A DNA stretch of 64,000 bases from Caulobacter sp. 602-2 (GTDB lineage: Bacteria > Pseudomonadota > Alphaproteobacteria > Caulobacterales > Caulobacteraceae): contig NZ_JAAKGT010000002.1 of NCBI RefSeq assembly GCF_011043625.1, positions 124,001 to 188,000 on the forward strand, in the 5' to 3' direction. Made by a program: the position numbers and the translations under genes. Under the pieces are notes generated by a model, which had not been told where the DNA came from, made no database searches, and was given only the letters and a program-made list of their open reading frames with translations. Below, in pieces: positions 10,345-40,936 of the stretch (position 1 is the stretch's first letter; every line of letters starts with the position of its first letter).

Positions 10345-11433
10345 ATGTCCAAGACCCCCGAACCCGGCCTCGATCGCCGCGACCTGCTGGCCGGCGCGGC
10401 CGCCCTCGGCCTCGCCGCCGTTCCCCTCGCAACCGCAAAGGCCCAAGCCATGCCCGCCGCAAAGCCCGACGACGGCGACAATTTCTACAAGAGCGACCAG
10501 GTCGCCATGCAGGCCGTCACCTTCCCCAACCAGTTCGGAATGAACGTCGCCGGCGCCCTCTTCCTGCCCACGGCCCTCGACCGCGCCGCCCGTCATCCGG
10601 CGATCGTCGTCGGTCACCCGATGGGGGCGGTGAAGGAGCAGAGCGCCAACCTCTATGCGACGAAGATGGCCGAGCGCGGCTTCGTGGCCCTGTCGATCGA
10701 CCTGTCGTTCTGGGGCGCCAGCGAGGGCCGGCCGCGCAACGCCGTCGCGCCCGAGATCTACGCCGAGGACTTCAGCGCCGCCGTCGACTTCCTGCGCGCC
10801 CAGGCCTTCGTCGACCGCGAGCGCATCGGCGCGATCGGGGTGTGCGGCAGCGGCAGCTTCGTGATCAGCGCCGCCAAGATCGATCCGCGCATCAAGGCCG
10901 TGGCCACGGTCAGCATGTACGACATGGGCTCGGCCGCCCGGAACGGCCTGCGTCACGGCCAGTCGCTGCAGCAGCGCAAGGCGCTGATCGCTGCGGCCGC
11001 CCAGCAGCGCGACGTCGAGTACGCGGGCGGCAAGACCGAGTATGTGGGCGGCACCACCCACCAGCTGACGGCGCAGACCGATCCGATCCAGCGCGAGTTC
11101 TTCGACTTCTACCGCACCCCGCGCGGCGAGTTCACGCCCGCCGGCTCGACGCCCCTGCTGACCACCCACCCCACGCTCAGCAGCATGGGCAAGTTCATGA
11201 ACTTCTATCCGTTCAACGACATCGAGACGATCTCGCCGCGCCCGCTGATGTTCGTCACTGGCGACGTCGCCCACTCGCGCGAGTTCAGCGAGGACGCCTA
11301 CAAGCGTGCGGCCGAGCCCAAGGACCTGGTGATCGTGCCCGGCGCCGGCCACGTCGACCTCTACGACCGCATCGGCCTGATCCCCTGGGACAGGCTGCAG
11401 GGCTTCTTCGCCAAGGCCCTGGCCTCCAGCTGA
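10345..11433 (+). CDS. Tat-exported alpha/beta hydrolase with probable cysteine nucleophile
   Basis: A 362-residue enzyme. The N-terminus DRRDLLAGAAALGLAAVPLA is a twin-arginine signal peptide, so it acts outside the cytoplasm. The fold has the HPAIVVGHPMGAVKEQ oxyanion segment, a nucleophile elbow IGVCGSGSF, an acid in MFVTGDVAHS and a base in PGAGHVDLYD. The elbow places a cysteine where most hydrolases have serine, as in dienelactone-hydrolase relatives. It lies 38 bases after the MFS gene on the same strand and probably shares its transcript. The substrate is unknown. Confidence 0.85.
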   Translation: MSKTPEPGLDRRDLLAGAAALGLAAVPLATAKAQAMPAAKPDDGDNFYKSDQVAMQAVTFPNQFGMNVAGALFLPTALDRAARHPAIVVGHPMGAVKEQSANLYATKMAERGFVALSIDLSFWGASEGRPRNAVAPEIYAEDFSAAVDFLRAQAFVDRERIGAIGVCGSGSFVISAAKIDPRIKAVATVSMYDMGSAARNGLRHGQSLQQRKALIAAAAQQRDVEYAGGKTEYVGGTTHQLTAQTDPIQREFFDFYRTPRGEFTPAGSTPLLTTHPTLSSMGKFMNFYPFNDIETISPRPLMFVTGDVAHSREFSEDAYKRAAEPKDLVIVPGAGHVDLYDRIGLIPWDRLQGFFAKALASS

Positions 11434-11492
11434 CCGCCCACGCTCCTGGACCGGATCGACATTCAGGCGGCCTGCCCCGCTTACCGCCGCAC

Positions 11493-11587
11493 GCCCCCGC
11501 GAAGGCGGGGGCCCAAGCCCCCTTTTCGGGGACAGGCTGGGCCGCGGACAGCCCGCAGACCCCGCTTGGGTCCCCGCCTTCGCGGGG
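11493..11587. repeat. GC-rich inverted repeat
   Basis: Arms of about 24 bp, each containing CCCCGCGAAGGCGGGG next to CCCAAGC, face each other at ~11493-11518 and 11564-11587. The arm type is a common intergenic palindrome in Caulobacter-like genomes. It lies between the exported hydrolase gene and the convergent regulator pair and may end transcription from both sides; it lacks a T-run. Confidence 0.7.
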
Positions 11588-11629
11588 AAGAACGGGGTCT
11601 GGGCGACGCCTGTGGGGTCGCCCCAGAAC

Positions 11630-11669
11630 TGTCATCCCGGCCCTGGCGAAGCGGCGCGTCGGGATGACA
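11630..11669. repeat. REP-like hairpin with GTCATCCCG ends
   Basis: TGTCATCCCG at 11630-11639 pairs with CGGGATGACA at 11660-11669 around a short GC-rich centre. The same terminal sequences bound the cores of the repeats at 802-1006 and 51635-51747, so these belong to one palindromic family. Confidence 0.7.
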
Positions 11670-11703
11670 CGCCTTTTGCCGCCCCTGATCGGGCGCGGAT
11701 CAG

Positions 11704-12360
11704 CTAGCCGCCCGCCCGTTCCCGCTCCAGGGCCTCGGCCATCCGCACCAGTTCGGCGAAGGATCCCGCGCGCATCTTCTTCATCAGGCTGCCGCGGTGC
11801 AGCTTGACGGTGATCTCCTGCAGGCCGAGTTCGCCGGCCACCTGCTTGTTGAGCAGGCCGGCGGTGACCAGGGTCATCACCTGCTGCTCGCGCGGCGTCA
11901 GGGCGTCGAAGCGGGCCTTCACCTCGGCGACGTCGCGGGCCAGTTCGCGGCGCTTTCCGTCCTTGGCGAGCGCGGCGGTGACGGCGTCGATCATGTCCTG
12001 GTCGCGGAACGGCTTGGCCAGGAAGTCGACCGCGCCGGCCTTCATCGCCCGCACCGTCATCGGCACGTCGGCGTGGCCGGTCATGACGATCACCGGGGCC
12101 CGCACGCCGCGCGCGGCCAGCGTCTCCTGCAGGTCAAGGCCGCTCATCTTGGGCATGCGCACGTCCACCAGGATGCAGCAGGGCGTGTCGGGCAGGGGCG
12201 CGTCCAGCAGCGCCTGGGCCGAGCCGTAAAGCGCCGTGCGCAGCCCCACCGACCGGAACAGCTTGTCCATCGAGCCGCGGAACATCTCGTTGTCGTCGAC
12301 GACCAGCACGGTCTGCACCGTCTCGTCGATCGCGCTCTCGGCCTTGCCCGGCATCCCCAT
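11704..12360 (-). CDS. FixJ/NarL-type two-component response regulator
   Basis: The 218-residue protein has a receiver domain (about 16-135) with acidic pair DD at 22-23, phosphoacceptor D66 in [12 protein letters not shown], the MTGHADV segment and the conserved lysine in AKPF. The C-terminal domain (about 148-212) is a LuxR/FixJ helix-turn-helix: [43 protein letters not shown]. That is the FixJ subclass, which responds to redox or oxygen kinases in alphaproteobacteria. It follows a stand-alone receiver gene with a 24-base gap, so they form an operon. No histidine kinase is adjacent; the FixL-like kinase at 4798 is a candidate partner only by type. Confidence 0.92.
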
Positions 12361-12384
12361 ATCCCCTTTCCCCAGACCCTCGGG

Positions 12385-12765
12385 TCACGCCTCGTCGAGC
12401 ATCCGCCTCAGGGTCGCCTCGATCCGGTCGGGCGCACAGGGCTTTTCGAGAAAATCCCGCGCCCCGGCCGCCATCGCCTGGTCGCGCATGTCCGGAAAGG
12501 CCGTGACCACCACCACCGGCAGGTCCGGATGGTCGACCTGCAGGCGGCGCAGCAGATCAAGGCCCGAGATCTCGGGCATGTGGATGTCGGTGACCACGCA
12601 GCCCCAGGCCCGCGGACCCGAGGCCAGGAAACTGGCCGCCGAGGCGAAGACGCCGACCTCCAGCCCGAACGAGCGGATCAGTCGCGCGAGGCCGGAACGG
12701 ACGAGGGCGTCGTCGTCGATGACGGCGATGGTGCGCCGACGGGACATGGCGTTTGCTCTAAACAC
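12385..12765 (-). CDS. Single-domain response regulator (receiver only)
   Basis: A 126-residue protein consisting of one receiver domain: acidic residues in AVIDDDALVRSGL, phosphoacceptor D60 in VVTDIHMPEISGLDLL, T in VVTAFPD and the lysine in LEKPC. There is no output domain, so it either works by binding a partner or serves as a phosphate sink. An alternative start six codons in (MSRRRTIAV, at 12747) is equally reasonable. Its receiver is of the FixJ type like that of the downstream regulator, and the pair is probably co-transcribed. Confidence 0.88.
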   Translation of the reverse strand: MFRANAMSRRRTIAVIDDDALVRSGLARLIRSFGLEVGVFASAASFLASGPRAWGCVVTDIHMPEISGLDLLRRLQVDHPDLPVVVVTAFPDMRDQAMAAGARDFLEKPCAPDRIEATLRRMLDEA

Positions 12766-33092: not shown

Positions 33093-35360
<2,268 letters not shown>

Positions 35361-35368
35361 GGGTGCTT

Positions 35369-37489
35369 TCACTTAGCCCGCATCAGAATTTCCACATTTT
35401 CTCTAACGCCGCCTTGGGGTAACGACGCCGCCCTGGACGCAACCACTCGAGTGCGAATTATTTTTCTCAGACTTAGAATAGAAAAATTTTCTATAATTCT
35501 ATTTGAAAGGGAATAGATAGCGATCGCACTTACGCAAATCCAAACGAAAACTTTAACATATATATTTATTTGTATTGAATTTAAAAACACAGAAGCCATG
35601 GCTGTTATTGAAATAGCGCAAAACAATATAGTCACGATCAGCCAATACGAATCCGCCTCCCGATGCCATTGACCAATCAAAACGGCAGCCGTTTCTCGCG
35701 CCTCCACAGCGCCCCTCTGCAACTGAAGACCGGCCTTAGCTGCATCTAGGCGTGCCCGCTCACTATCAGCCAGCGCTGCCCCCATGGCCTCCTCATGCCG
35801 GATCGACACCGCCAGACGCTCACGCTGCGCCTTTAGGCGCTCATCTTTAGCCGCAGCCTCACGGATAATGCGCGCAACCTCCGAAGCATTCTCAGCGGTT
35901 ACGACCTCCGGATCATTCCCCGTCGCTATCGTGATTTCGCGCAACGCCACCGGATCACCCATTACAGCGTCCAGCTGCTCCGTCGAAAACAGAGAAAGCT
36001 GCTCGACCGTTTCCCTCACTCTCTTAATAACTAGAGGGGAGGTTTTAAGCACCAACTCACACGATGATAGCAATTCGCCGCGACTTATCCTTTCCCCCTC
36101 AGATGTCCCATAAGCCAAGAGAAATAGCGTCGAAAAATGCCTCATTTCGACAGCCGGCGGTATGGCGTACGATGGCCACCCATCCACCTTTCGACGACAA
36201 TAGACATCTGAATACCGAACAAGAACAGAACTTCTCGTTAGGAATAGAAATTTTGACGAGAAAGCATCGGATGTATAATTTCCACCTCGACGCCTAATTA
36301 TATAGGCTATAGATTTCGCATCCCTAGCCTTTCTATTCCCAACCATGGACTCATAGTATGGAAGACCAGATGCAAAACGCTCAATTTCCGAATCATTGAA
36401 AATTTCTTTTGACTGTATAGAACTCAATATATTTGCATTTAGGATCTGAATACCAAGCCCTTTCACCTCCTGATCCGGCTTTGCTACAAAATTGGAAGCA
36501 CGCCTCTCAGATACGATGTTTCCGCGAATTGTATCCGCGACCATCCCATACCTTTGACCAGGAGCCTTTCCGAGAACAGCCTGGACAATTTCCTTAGCCT
36601 CTTCGATAGAGTGCTGAAGAGCCACAACTCCAATTCCGTGCTTCTTACACAGACTCAGCACGGAAGAAGCGGCCTGCGCTCGCCCAACCCCCATTAAACC
36701 GACCGCATCCAGCAGCAATGGCCCATCAAACACAACTGTAAGGTCTATCTTTTGAGGCGCAGGCTTGACCGGATCCCTAAGCTCAGACACCAGATCCATA
36801 AGGAACCCAATTTCCGCTAAAGTTGCGACTTTTGCAAATAAATCTATACGCTCACGCGATAACCACTGAGAAAAAGACGCAAACAATACGACAATATGTT
36901 TATCGATTCCAAAAAATCTCTCTTCAGCGTCCATATTTCCCGATATGGATAACCTTTCTTTTTTATTACCATCAACAATAGAATCTACCCAAATTTTCAG
37001 TTCATCTTTATCATTAACGTCGACATTAGTCGCCCACTGTATAAACAGATTTTTCCATTCTTCGAAATTATATTCCGCCCTAAATATAGGAGAAGTAGCT
37101 TCCAAAAATTGTAAAAATTCCTCAATTATTATTGATATATCCCTCTCAGCCTCAAGTACAGACTCATCAACTCTTAGCTCATCAACCTTCTCCGTATAAA
37201 AGTATAGTGCACCATCTCCGTTTCGCGCGCCCTCCCGAAGATACCCTTCAGCCAAGAGGCCCAGCGACAGCGCCTCAGCCGCATAAGCGGTAAATTGGGA
37301 GCCAAATATGGGTTGCAGAGAAGTAGCGAGAGCGTCCGGTAAAAATTGTTGCCCCGATTTCCCGATTAAAAAGGGAAGCACAAGCGGGACAAGCGCATGC
37401 TGGGGCGACTGGCCACGCTGTCTGGCGTTATCGAAAAGCGCGTATGAAGCAAGGGTTTGACGTGCATACTGTCGAGTAGTCATCTGCAC
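35369..37489 (-). CDS. AT-rich island gene: putative PIN-like nuclease with coiled coil and two membrane segments
   Basis: A 706-residue protein in a segment clearly richer in A and T, with different codon use from its neighbours, so probably acquired. Residues ~1-245 are helical and unrecognised. Residues ~248-425 resemble a PIN domain: D255 and D261 in TVVFDGPLLLDAVGLMG, E296/E297/E300 in LQHSIEEAKEIV, D390 in RKARDAKSIAYIIRRRGG and T418 in KFLFLTRSSVLV. These are the expected places for the acidic and Thr/Ser metal-site residues. Residues ~540-608 are a charged coiled coil (RLKAQRERLAVSIRHEEAMG). Two hydrophobic segments follow (~615-636 and ~641-663), leaving the nuclease part in the cytoplasm. 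Function is inferred; a defence or toxin role is possible. Confidence 0.6.
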   Translation of the reverse strand: MQMTTRQYARQTLASYALFDNARQRGQSPQHALVPLVLPFLIGKSGQQFLPDALATSLQPIFGSQFTAYAAEALSLGLLAEGYLREGARNGDGALYFYTEKVDELRVDESVLEAERDISIIIEEFLQFLEATSPIFRAEYNFEEWKNLFIQWATNVDVNDKDELKIWVDSIVDGNKKERLSISGNMDAEERFFGIDKHIVVLFASFSQWLSRERIDLFAKVATLAEIGFLMDLVSELRDPVKPAPQKIDLTVVFDGPLLLDAVGLMGVGRAQAASSVLSLCKKHGIGVVALQHSIEEAKEIVQAVLGKAPGQRYGMVADTIRGNIVSERRASNFVAKPDQEVKGLGIQILNANILSSIQSKEIFNDSEIERFASGLPYYESMVGNRKARDAKSIAYIIRRRGGNYTSDAFSSKFLFLTRSSVLVRYSDVYCRRKVDGWPSYAIPPAVEMRHFSTLFLLAYGTSEGERISRGELLSSCELVLKTSPLVIKRVRETVEQLSLFSTEQLDAVMGDPVALREITIATGNDPEVVTAENASEVARIIREAAAKDERLKAQRERLAVSIRHEEAMGAALADSERARLDAAKAGLQLQRGAVEARETAAVLIGQWHREADSYWLIVTILFCAISITAMASVFLNSIQINIYVKVFVWICVSAIAIYSLSNRIIENFSILSLRKIIRTRVVASRAASLPQGGVRENVEILMRAK

Positions 37490-38169
37490 TTCGATTCTTT
37501 ATTCTTGGACCGTAAATCGGAACAGAAATTTGAATGTGATGCAAGACGGACGCTCTTCAACATCATCCCCCTCAAAATCGCTTCAAATGCCGTGCCCGAG
37601 CAACAATGTAATTCCATGACGCGGGCCTCAATCCCCATCCCCCGCCGCACAAACCCCAACCCAATCAACGCCCTAGACAAAAACGCACGTTTCCCATCCG
37701 ACAGCTCCAAACCGCCCGCATAATCCTCTCCATCCCGTCGCGGGGAGAGGGCGCTAGGATCCGGCCCGATGCGTGCGGCGGGGTGCGATCGAGCGGGGCC
37801 TCCTGGAGCGGCGTGAGCCGGGCCGGCGGGGCTTGAACGGAGGGCGGGGGACGTAAACCCGCCTATCGGGGGCTTGCCTGTCATGGGCTCCCGCCCGCCC
37901 GAGGGTCCGCGCCATACGCGCCTCCCGGCCGTCAAGAAACGGGGAGCCTGCGCGGTGGAAGGGGTAAAGGGCGGAAGAGGCCCGCGCGCCCCGGCCTGAG
38001 GTCAAACGATCGCGCGGGGCGTCAAGGCTTCGTCGAAACGGTAACCACACACAGCTTCCGGACGCGGTCCGGACGCCCCGCGCCCTCTCCATTCCCTTCG
38101 CAGCGAAAGCGCGAGGCCGATTTCCCGCACCCTCTCCCATGGGGAGAGGTTTGAGGAGGCACGCCCCCC
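37490..38169. other. Intergenic transition from AT-rich island to normal GC; no gene supported
   Basis: The first ~200 bases remain AT-rich and belong to the island's right end. From about 37730 the base composition returns to normal. Palindromes with CTCTCC arms occur near 37729-37750 and as CCTCTCCC-ATG-GGGAGAGG at 38131-38149, just before the next gene. Open frames here lack any recognisable protein pattern, although the minus-strand frame ending near 37480 might be the remains of something lost. No insertion-sequence ends were found. Confidence 0.5.
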
Positions 38170-38538
38170 ATGGCCAAGCGCCGCAACGCCCTCCCCGTCC
38201 GCCCGCACCGCAAGCGCGGCCTGCCCGACGCCGACGGAAACGTCGTCTGCAAGGCCGAGCGCCGATGGCGCATGCGCCGGGCCGTCGGGCTGATCGCCGA
38301 CAAGTTCAGGGCCCACCGGCCCGGCGAGAGCGACTACGAAAAGCAGAAGCGCGCGGAACCCGGCCAGGAGGGCTATCTCGGCTGGTGGTGGGATCCCCAG
38401 TGGGACGCCTACTGCACGCCCGAGGCGCGCCGCTGGCAATGGCCGCAGGATCGCCTGCGGGGGTCGTCGCTCCCCGATCGCCGCGACCCGAAGGTGGCGG
38501 AGCTCTGGCCGTGGGAGGCCGTGGACATCGACTGGTAG
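38170..38538 (+). CDS. Hypothetical protein, basic and tryptophan-rich (122 aa)
   Basis: A short basic protein beginning MAKRRNALPVRPHRKRGLPD. Towards the end it has many tryptophans (GYLGWWWDPQWDAY, RRWQWPQDRL, AELWPWEAVDIDW). No domain, signal peptide or membrane segment is recognisable. The ATG follows a GGAGG ribosome site (38155-38159). It might be translated as an independent small gene; its neighbours give no functional hint. Confidence 0.55.
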   Translation: MAKRRNALPVRPHRKRGLPDADGNVVCKAERRWRMRRAVGLIADKFRAHRPGESDYEKQKRAEPGQEGYLGWWWDPQWDAYCTPEARRWQWPQDRLRGSSLPDRRDPKVAELWPWEAVDIDW

Positions 38539-38642
38539 CCTGGCGCCGGCTCAGGGCGACGGCCTCCGCGAAAATCAACAAGACTGCGCACGTCCGCCGT
38601 GGGAGGACTGCTCTCACGCAACAAGCCTGCCGGAGCCCTCCC

Positions 38643-39536
38643 ATGATCGACCTCGTCATCGACGCCCGCCGCCGCGACATCGGCGGTTTCGAGGTCGGGC
38701 GGGTGCTGCCCTTCGCCAAGCGGCGCATGGTCGGGCCGTTCGTGTTCCTCGACCACATGGGCCCGGCCAGCTTCGACCCGAACTTCCCCCAGAGCGTCGA
38801 CGTGCGGCCCCACCCGCATATCGGCCTGTCGACCCTGAGCTACCTGTTCGAAGGGGCCATGACCCACCGCGACAGCGTCGGCTCGGAGATCGAGATCGTG
38901 CCCGGCGAGGTCAACTGGATGACGGCCGGGTCGGGCATCACCCACTCCGAACGCTTCGAGACCCTGCGCAGCCAGGGCGGGGTGATGAACGGCATGCAGG
39001 CCTGGATCGCCCTGCCCAAGGAATTCGAGGAGATGGATCCCGGCTTCAGCCACCACGCCGGCTCGGCCGACCTGCCCTACTACGAAGGCGCGGGCCTCAA
39101 GGCGCGGCTGATCGCCGGCGAGGCCTTTGGCGCCAAGGCCAGCGTGCCGGTGCACTCGCCGCTGTTCTACGTCCACTGGGAACTGGCGGCCGGGGCCAAG
39201 GCGGCCCTGCCGGCCGAATATTCCGAGCGCGCGGCCTATGTCTCCAGCGGCCGCGTGGAAGTGGCCGGCCGCGAGCTGGGCGCGGCCCAGATGGCCGTGT
39301 TCGCCCCGGGCGAGACCGTGGTGTTCGAGGCCCTGGAGCCGTCGGTGGTCATGCTGCTGGGCGGCGAGCCGATCGGCCCGCGCTTCATCGAGTGGAACTT
39401 CGTCTCCTCGTCGAAGGACCGCATCGAGCAGGCCAAGGCCGACTGGCGCGCCGGCCGCATGAAGCTGCCCGACCTCGACGACGGCGAGTTCATCCCCCTG
39501 CCGGAGGACTACACGCCGCCGGCTTCGCCGCTCTAA
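38643..39536 (+). CDS. Pirin-family protein (bicupin)
   Basis: A 297-residue pirin. The N-terminal cupin carries the typical metal ligands in VRPHPHIGLSTLSYLFEGAMTHRDS and SGITHSERF (H, H, H and E). The C-terminal half has the second cupin (VHWELAAGAKAALP) and the typical FIEWNFVSSSKDRIEQAKADWRAGRM near the end. Bacterial pirins such as YhhW have quercetinase activity, and others bind regulators; the role here is not known. The start at 38643 gives MIDLVIDARRRDIGGFEVGR, the expected family N-terminus. Confidence 0.93.
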   Translation: MIDLVIDARRRDIGGFEVGRVLPFAKRRMVGPFVFLDHMGPASFDPNFPQSVDVRPHPHIGLSTLSYLFEGAMTHRDSVGSEIEIVPGEVNWMTAGSGITHSERFETLRSQGGVMNGMQAWIALPKEFEEMDPGFSHHAGSADLPYYEGAGLKARLIAGEAFGAKASVPVHSPLFYVHWELAAGAKAALPAEYSERAAYVSSGRVEVAGRELGAAQMAVFAPGETVVFEALEPSVVMLLGGEPIGPRFIEWNFVSSSKDRIEQAKADWRAGRMKLPDLDDGEFIPLPEDYTPPASPL

Positions 39537-39712: not shown

Positions 39713-40936
39713 TCAAGCCGCCTCCTCGAACGCCGCGTAGACCAGCGTGCGCAGCTCCCGCCGGATGGGATAGACGCTCGACGGCATCAGCTGGGTCATG
39801 AACACCACCGCCAGGTCTTCCACCGGGTCGACCCAGAAGGCGGTCGAGGCCATGCCGCCCCAGAAGGCCTCGCCCAGGCTGCCGATGGTGCGGGTGCGGG
39901 CCAGATCGGTGGTCACCGCGAAGCCGAGGCCGAAGCCGACGCCGTCATAGACGCTCTCGCTGAACAGCGACTTCGACATCTCGGTCAGTTCGCGGCCGCC
40001 CGGAAGGTGATTGAGCATCATCGCCTTCAGCGTCTTGGGGCTGACGATGCGGGCGCCGTCCAGCTGGCCGCCGTTCAGGATCATGCGGCAGAAGCGCATA
40101 TAGTCGGCGGCGGTGGAGACGAGGCCCCCGCCGCCCGACTTGAACAGCGGGTCCTTGAGGAACGGGCTCTGGGTCGGATCGTCCTGCAGCACGACCTTGC
40201 CCTTGGGGTCCAGGCTGTAGCAGGCGGCGAAGCGACCCTGGTCGGCTTCGGGAACGAAGAAGCCGGTGTCGACCATCTTCAGCGGGTCGAAGATGCGGTC
40301 TTTCAGGAACTGGTCGAACGGCTGGCCCGAAATGACCTGGACGAGGTAGCCCAGCACGTCGGTGCAGACCGAATAGTTCCAGGCCTCGCCGGGGCTGAAC
40401 TCCAGCGGCAGCTTGGCCAGCTCGGCGATGAAGCCGTCGAGGTCGCGCGGGCCCGGCAGGTCGTCGAGGTGCAGCTTGCGATAGGCCGCGTCGATATTGC
40501 CGCGCTGCTGGAAGCCGTAGGTGAAGCCGGCCGTGTGGCGCAACAGGTCGATCATCCGCATCGGCTCGGCCAGCGGCTTGGTCTGGAACATGCCCAGGCT
40601 GCCGGCGGCGAACACGCCCAGGTCCTTGAAGGCCGGGATGAAGCGATGGACGGGGTCCTCGAGGGCGACGCGGCCCTCCTCGACCAGCATCATGAAGGCG
40701 ATCGAGGTGATCGGCTTGGTCATCGAGTAGATGCGGTACAGCGTGTCGGACTTCAGCGCCGTTCCGCGCTCGCGGTCGGCCAGGCCCAGCACGGTCTCAT
40801 GGGCCAGCTGGCCCCTGCGCCAGACCTGCAGCTGGGCGCCGGGCAGAAGGCCGGGCTCGACATACTTGGCCTGCAGGAACGTATCGATGCGCTTCAGGCG
40901 CTGCGACGACAGGCCGACGGCTTCGGGCGTGCTCAA
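39713..40936 (-). CDS. Serine hydrolase of the class C beta-lactamase family
   Basis: A 407-residue protein without a signal peptide. It shows the SxxK active-site motif SMTK in DTLYRIYSMTKPITSIAFM, YSV in WNYSVCTDVLGYLVQ in the second motif position, and a typical GSLGEAFWGGMASTAFWVDP near the C-terminus. These proteins include esterases and D-aminopeptidases rather than true beta-lactamases, so antibiotic resistance should not be inferred. It is divergent from the hybrid kinase with a 129-base shared region. Confidence 0.9.
   Translation of the reverse strand: MSTPEAVGLSSQRLKRIDTFLQAKYVEPGLLPGAQLQVWRRGQLAHETVLGLADRERGTALKSDTLYRIYSMTKPITSIAFMMLVEEGRVALEDPVHRFIPAFKDLGVFAAGSLGMFQTKPLAEPMRMIDLLRHTAGFTYGFQQRGNIDAAYRKLHLDDLPGPRDLDGFIAELAKLPLEFSPGEAWNYSVCTDVLGYLVQVISGQPFDQFLKDRIFDPLKMVDTGFFVPEADQGRFAACYSLDPKGKVVLQDDPTQSPFLKDPLFKSGGGGLVSTAADYMRFCRMILNGGQLDGARIVSPKTLKAMMLNHLPGGRELTEMSKSLFSESVYDGVGFGLGFAVTTDLARTRTIGSLGEAFWGGMASTAFWVDPVEDLAVVFMTQLMPSSVYPIRRELRTLVYAAFEEAA

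Follow-up and report, generated by a model that had tools for sequence, protein, structure and literature searches.

A PIN domain has already been validated elsewhere in defence, according to the available text of the DefensePredictor report (its references 10 and 33-35; PMC13092281). The same text describes DS-3, a one-protein PIN defence system with no antitoxin whose catalytic mutants lose protection, and its authors suggest a possible auto-inhibition until infection; DS-3 is thus a precedent for a one-gene, self-restrained PIN effector. Defence hot spots bounded by core genes, many of which have no obvious mobility genes, are described, in the accessible sections of the respective papers, for Pseudomonas aeruginosa (core defence hotspots cDHS1 and cDHS2; PMC10250203) and Escherichia coli (hotspot #37; PMC10121019). 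We analysed 64,000 nucleotides of Caulobacter sp. 602-2 (contig NZ_JAAKGT010000002.1, positions 124,001 to 188,000; hereafter the window), in which the 3' end of uvrB is followed by a cargo slot with one foreign gene (the PIN gene) for a predicted membrane-anchored PIN nuclease. We consider it probable that this gene is a one-gene abortive-infection anti-phage effector. The defence function is suggested by position, predicted structure, and precedent, and an original prediction made from the sequence had already pointed to a likeness with defence or abortive-infection genes.

The slot stood out from the rest of the window in guanine-plus-cytosine (GC) content. The mean GC of 1-kb intervals across the 64 kb was 69.6% (standard deviation 4.8), and every interval below 60% fell in 35001-38000, the lowest being 44.9%. 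Inside 35364-37625, GC dropped from approximately 68% to 39-55% (500-bp intervals). Third-position GC was 0.44 for the PIN gene, compared to 0.96 for uvrB and 0.94 for the gene at 39713. Borders were determined against eight near relatives, which are genus members with UvrB 93-99% identical to that of the window. Blastn homology to these relatives stopped at 35351-35363, and the stop codon of uvrB (33093..35360, forward strand), the left anchor of the slot, ends at 35360. Homology restarted at 37626-37632 in all eight. The foreign cargo slot therefore covers approximately 2.26 kb (35364..37625, no strand assigned). The A- and T-rich island and its sharp left border at the uvrB stop were as originally predicted, and only the extent given then (35369..37700) has to be shortened slightly on the right, to about 37625.

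A 40-bp right-border sequence (37632..37671, forward strand) is present in a single copy in the genome, forms the right edge in 8 of 8 near relatives, and is common to all nine genomes. Among 58 genus relatives it was found in the eight near ones only, plus one match with 9 mismatches (L083) that was taken as chance. The right-hand neighbour gene (38640..39536, forward strand), which we take to be pirin-like, is 87-100% identical in 7 of the 8 near relatives; in the eighth, the contig stops short of this gene. Because this neighbour is conserved, sequence variation does not extend beyond the slot, from the uvrB stop to the right border. An empty site, in which uvrB would be followed directly by the gene at 38170, had been envisaged in the original prediction and was not seen in the eight near relatives; each of them has different genes between the two borders. 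The same flanks with variable cargo, as in core hotspots, were thus present in 8 of 8, with the left border placed within 13 bp and the right within 7 bp.

Slots of the near relatives were approximately 2.0-3.4 kb and usually held one module. Ten of their 16 listed cargo open reading frames (ORFs) were scanned individually, which covered every near slot but that of L042. PADLOC matches at E ≤ 1e-5 were obtained in 5 of these 7 slots: a type II-A retron reverse transcriptase (5.5e-73) with an NDT partner (7.1e-16) in L036 (genome G393, 10623-12702), an AAA protein resembling HEC-01A in L039 (5.6e-33), an NsnB-like AAA protein in L040 (G455; 1.2e-44), and RelA/SpoT proteins in L041 and L043, the latter being PDC-S33 at 2e-56 (PDC presumably standing for phage-defence candidate). 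A NACHT protein was detected in L038 (PADLOC 4.5e-4), and L037 (G458) yielded an Mrr-like match (Mrr_cat) of 20.0 bits for a cut-off of 21.

Other features of these slots were observed. The apparent type II-A retron of L036 has a small additional ORF besides the reverse transcriptase and the NDT-like protein, and is the sole content of its slot. In L037 (9961-12377) there are two cargo genes without a PADLOC match, one being the borderline Mrr, and these are a candidate new defence pair. L042 (G413) and L081 (G416) carry the same 421-residue protein (78% identical), which is AAA-like by eye and is the only close match among the 72 genus cargo ORFs. A second, diverged uvrB 3' end was seen downstream of uvrB in L040, L055 (G437), L084 (G439), and L088 (G417); in L040 it has a cargo unit on either side, which gives the impression that cargo comes with it.

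The slot could be surveyed in 58 of 74 other genus genomes, one of which had less than 1 kb. At least one low-GC ORF started within 5 kb of uvrB in 43 of the 58 loci, and the 72 low-GC ORFs in those 43 loci included only 2 similar pairs. The first 500 bases after uvrB were below 60% GC in 22 of 57 loci. As a control we used the 3' end of another core gene approximately 13 kb away, presumably FadB-like. Low GC followed uvrB in 14 of 30 genus loci (window included) compared to 0 of 27 for the control, where the 30 uvrB and 30 control loci were the best-matching genomes for each gene, and hence different sets, and 3 of the 30 control loci were too short. At class level, low GC followed uvrB in 8 of 28 loci, drawn from the best 29 among 108 matching genomes (the window not counted), one being too short. 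Ten pieces of the class-level slots were scanned. An NsnA/HEPN-like pair was present in L172 (G140) and an ATPase-nuclease that we take to be OLD-like in L178 (G003); these two uvrB slots belong to other families. The remaining pieces gave a ParA-like ATPase (a weak PADLOC match), an HD-associated region, a CAAX-protease-like protein, an EamA transporter, or nothing. No integrase was found among the first 25 families listed for the genus slots or in the individually scanned near-slot ORFs. Since cargo varies among relatives, low GC is frequent after uvrB and not after the control gene, and 5 of 15 loci of the PIN family (described below) lie at uvrB, the uvrB 3' site is, by sequence comparison, probably a defence hot spot.

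This site resembles cDHS1, cDHS2, and hotspot #37 in having fixed core flanks, varied defence cargo, and often no mobility gene, as those are presented in the available text (PMC10250203, PMC10121019), and the lower GC is shared with cDHS1 in the same partial source (PMC10250203). Unlike those hot spots, the uvrB slot is small and in most cases occupied by a single module; its borders are precise nearly to the base, and it begins at the uvrB stop codon. The string 'uvr' was absent from the main text of the E. coli hotspot paper in the portion available (PMC10121019). A literature search, mostly without subscription papers, found no description of the uvrB slot, and within the same limits no membrane-anchored PIN defence gene was evident. 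The PIN effector family, in a slot for which this search gave no description, may therefore be new; PIN nucleases and core defence hotspots are known.

The PIN gene (35369..37483, reverse strand) is the sole cargo of the window slot, which contains no mobility gene, and is convergent with uvrB with 8 bp between them. The ORF (35369-37489) encodes 706 amino acids from a GTG at 37489, the length first predicted. The close homologues share a start region near the in-frame ATG at 37483, so that the translation start is most likely this ATG, giving 704 residues; residue numbers below follow the 704-residue start, and 2 is added for the 706 numbering. Beyond the gene the slot has only 142 + 8 bases, and the other ORFs of at least 80 amino acids in the slot are antisense to it or cross a border. 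From the N-terminus, all on the reverse strand, the protein has a mostly helical domain that is weakly winged-helix-like (residues 3-104; 37172..37477), a helical region in the predicted model that may be a sensor or inhibitor (105-236; 36776..37171), the predicted PIN-fold nuclease domain (245-460; 36104..36751), and a long helix (530-634 in the model), of which residues 530-614 (35642..35896) are a probable coiled coil. Two predicted membrane helices follow at residues 615-633 (35585..35641; Kyte-Doolittle 2.44) and 641-659 (35507..35563; Kyte-Doolittle 2.03). The coiled-coil-like long helix and two C-terminal hydrophobic helices, in line with the coiled coil and membrane helices proposed earlier, are supported by the model and by hydrophobicity, and two C-terminal hydrophobic peaks were present in 46 of 48 aligned members. 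These 48 members are a chosen subset, and a second alignment of 18 members overlaps with them.

When the predicted structure of residues 245-460 was compared with known structures by a structural aligner, the top matches were mostly VapC-type or other PIN proteins, the PIN identity of some of the matched PDB titles being our own assumption. The PIN-like domain extends beyond the boundary of about residue 425 (706 numbering) suggested at first, to about 460. The active-site residues D253 (36725..36727), E295 (36599..36601), and D388 (36320..36322), all on the reverse strand, were invariant in 48 of 48 and 18 of 18 aligned members, and T416 (36236..36238, reverse strand) was a threonine in 45 of 48 and 17 of 18. 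This conservation spans members down to 15% identity. In the 706 numbering of the original prediction these are D255, E297, D390, and T418, all of which were named there; of the glutamates it had listed, E297 is the conserved one and E300 varies beyond the close clade. The predicted fold and the acidic residues with T416 fit what defines PIN-domain nucleases, for which metal-dependent cleavage of RNA (or DNA) would be expected.

VapC toxins of the VapBC systems share with the PIN gene product the predicted PIN fold and the D/E/D plus T active-site residues. However, VapC is a short single-domain protein of approximately 130 amino acids, whereas the PIN gene encodes 704 amino acids with several predicted regions, including extra N-terminal domains, a coiled coil, and two predicted membrane helices, and it has no antitoxin gene. 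DS-3 is similar in being a single gene with a PIN nuclease and no antitoxin, but its PIN domain is described in the available text as split between the N and C termini (PMC13092281), in contrast to the one block at 245-460 in our model, and that description sets the two apart. SLATT two-transmembrane (2TM) effectors of conflict systems have two membrane helices, as predicted here, by the account in the accessible part of their description (PMC7159879). The PIN protein differs in a predicted PIN nuclease that precedes the membrane helices. It matched no SLATT profile in Pfam at E values up to 10, and a distant relation may exist. When the window protein was searched against Pfam, NCBIfam, PADLOC, and PDB sequences, nothing meaningful was returned.

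At least 7 close homologues (45-57% identity) were found, and a sister family of at least 112 further proteins was reached via a distant relative; all protein counts are lower bounds. Where the sources name sister-family members, they are hypothetical or uncharacterised proteins. A wider profile protein search added one partial match. With its own genome included, the profile matched 3 of 385 class genomes and 1 of 75 genus genomes, and matches over the PIN domain were obtained in 7 of 398 genomes at the order level (12 more over the tail only) and 3 of 398 at the phylum level (2 more over the tail only). Matches to the coiled-coil and membrane tail only (12 of 19 at the order level and 2 of 5 at the phylum level) were left out as relatives. 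The gene was found in 0 of 74 other genus genomes, some of which are incomplete. No homologue was found in plasmid and phage records at E 1e-5, nor in genome contigs and viral contigs scanned with the close-homologue alignment; when the sister family was used for a further scan of genome contigs, seven loci were obtained. The distribution of the PIN gene is sporadic. Its absence from the other genus genomes, with other foreign genes at the site in the eight near relatives, agrees with the foreign origin first proposed and not with a gene of normal composition held by all relatives.

Fifteen family loci were examined, the window and 14 others. Gene GC at the 14 others was 0.42-0.54 in surroundings of 0.53-0.68. 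When neighbours within 3 kb were compared (frames of at least 50 codons, E ≤ 1e-6; three weak pairs from general enzyme families, L109/L140, L136/L138, and L139/window, set aside), none was widely shared except uvrB and its antisense frames, and no partner gene is shared among the 15 loci; at the window locus the lack of a partner gene had been pointed out in the original prediction. Five of the 15 lie directly at a uvrB 3' end, at distances of 8 bp (window), 21 bp (L137), 30 bp (L110, Devosia), 141 bp (L108), and 178 bp (L139), and the uvrB identity of the neighbour gene was confirmed at L137, L139, and L108. They represent four lineages, because L137 (G678) and L139 (G498) share one genus (UvrB 92% identical) and have further flanking sequence in common besides uvrB. 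Although both loci are at the same uvrB 3' end, the two PIN proteins are only 21% alike, and relative to uvrB the two PIN genes point in opposite directions; this gives the impression of two independent arrivals at a single site. The compared pairs among the PIN proteins of the window, L137, L139, and L108 were 20-27% alike. Other family loci lie beyond gyrB, ettA, rplS, nrdA, and a GcrA-like gene (score under its cut-off); L105 follows an SDR gene, L107 is beside the minC start, and for L104, L106, and L109 no neighbour at a 3' end could be clearly assigned. The association with uvrB is best read as a landing site rather than a functional partnership, since the genus puts unrelated defence modules at the same site. 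The sister gene of Devosia sp. A8/3-2 (L110, 9989-12065), which adjoins the 3' end of uvrB, is split into three ORFs and is apparently decaying.

Several findings weigh against a PIN effector of defence at a defence site. The best PDB match by Foldseek had an E value of 1.1e-2, so that none reached E ≤ 0.001, and the whole-chain predicted template modeling score was 0.45; the PIN fold assignment, a prediction, is therefore based on the structural aligner and the active-site residues. Two of the 48 aligned members have no two clear C-terminal hydrophobic helices, and PADLOC has no model for the PIN gene. Ten of the 15 family loci are away from uvrB. The defence character of two of the eight near slots is unproven (L037, with only the below-cut-off Mrr match, and L042), and only some of the eight low-GC class-level slots look defensive.

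Other explanations of the gene were also considered. A membrane-anchored PIN-fold DNase could degrade phage DNA entering at the inner membrane, so that the phage is cleared and the cell survives. The predicted anchor would place such a nuclease at the point of DNA entry, and DNA flap nucleases count among PIN-like folds; however, the top structural matches were mostly RNA-cutting PIN proteins, and we regard this scenario as unlikely. Those matches, together with the low GC, sporadic distribution, and solitary position of the gene, would also suit a selfish VapC-like toxin-antitoxin addiction gene with no anti-phage role. That scenario seems quite unlikely, because the 142 + 8 spare bases and the antisense or border-crossing ORFs leave no space for a separate antitoxin, the protein is approximately five times the length of VapC with its extra regions conserved, and recognised defence modules occupy the same slot in near relatives.

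The split Devosia copy could suggest foreign cargo without a selected function that is decaying. The window copy, however, is open over 704 codons with all invariant residues present, and the family retains its active site at 15% identity, which makes decay very improbable. Least credible to us is a cellular helper of UvrB, for RNA processing or DNA repair, with low GC by chance. Proximity to uvrB does recur in 5 of 15 loci, but only 1 of 75 genus genomes has the gene, unrelated genes occupy the site in relatives, the orientation to uvrB varies, and 10 of 15 loci are elsewhere (e.g., at gyrB, ettA, rplS, or nrdA).

The abortive-infection effector, which we favour, could work as follows. The two predicted membrane helices would tether the catalytic domain to the inner membrane on its cytoplasmic side, and the N-terminal helical domains, with no antitoxin present, may restrain the nuclease until the cell senses infection, either via phage entry at the membrane or via a phage product. 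The PIN domain would then cut cellular RNA (tRNA, rRNA, or mRNA), and cell growth would halt before phage progeny form. The gene appears to spread by inserting at gene ends, the 3' end of uvrB among them. Self-restraint within one gene is suggested by the site, where defence modules are interchangeable, by the conserved active site, by the predicted anchoring in the membrane, and by the missing antitoxin. For the broader proposal, an unnamed family of one-gene, membrane-anchored, self-restrained PIN ribonucleases spreading in Alphaproteobacteria via an integrase-free uvrB 'defence socket' with near base-precise swaps of single modules, we find the case evenly balanced.

Sequences around the slot were also inspected. 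A copy of a dispersed repeat of approximately 360 bp lies in the right flank, outside the cargo (37733..38092, forward strand); 12 other long copies are present in the genome (74-84% identity), and no Rfam match to it was found. An RNA gene as the landing site was dropped, since 34500-39500 had no Rfam match up to E 1 and the 64-kb window had no tRNA or tmRNA. A classical att duplication was judged unsupported for this copy, as exact pieces of 8-12 bases from approximately 35331-35372 were not repeated in 37480-37760 on either strand. A scan for promoters and terminators gave signals no more frequent than in shuffled sequence.

If our favoured explanation is true, the PIN gene would belong to a compact class of nuclease immunity that has no antitoxin and carries its own membrane anchor, and the restraint and triggering of a PIN ribonuclease within one polypeptide would become testable. 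Since the borders are precise and no mobility gene is visible, it may be asked by what means single defence modules move. The uvrB slot may also serve as a discovery tool, as the few kb after uvrB in the genus and in related Alphaproteobacteria should yield more defence genes, some of which are expected to be without a known family.
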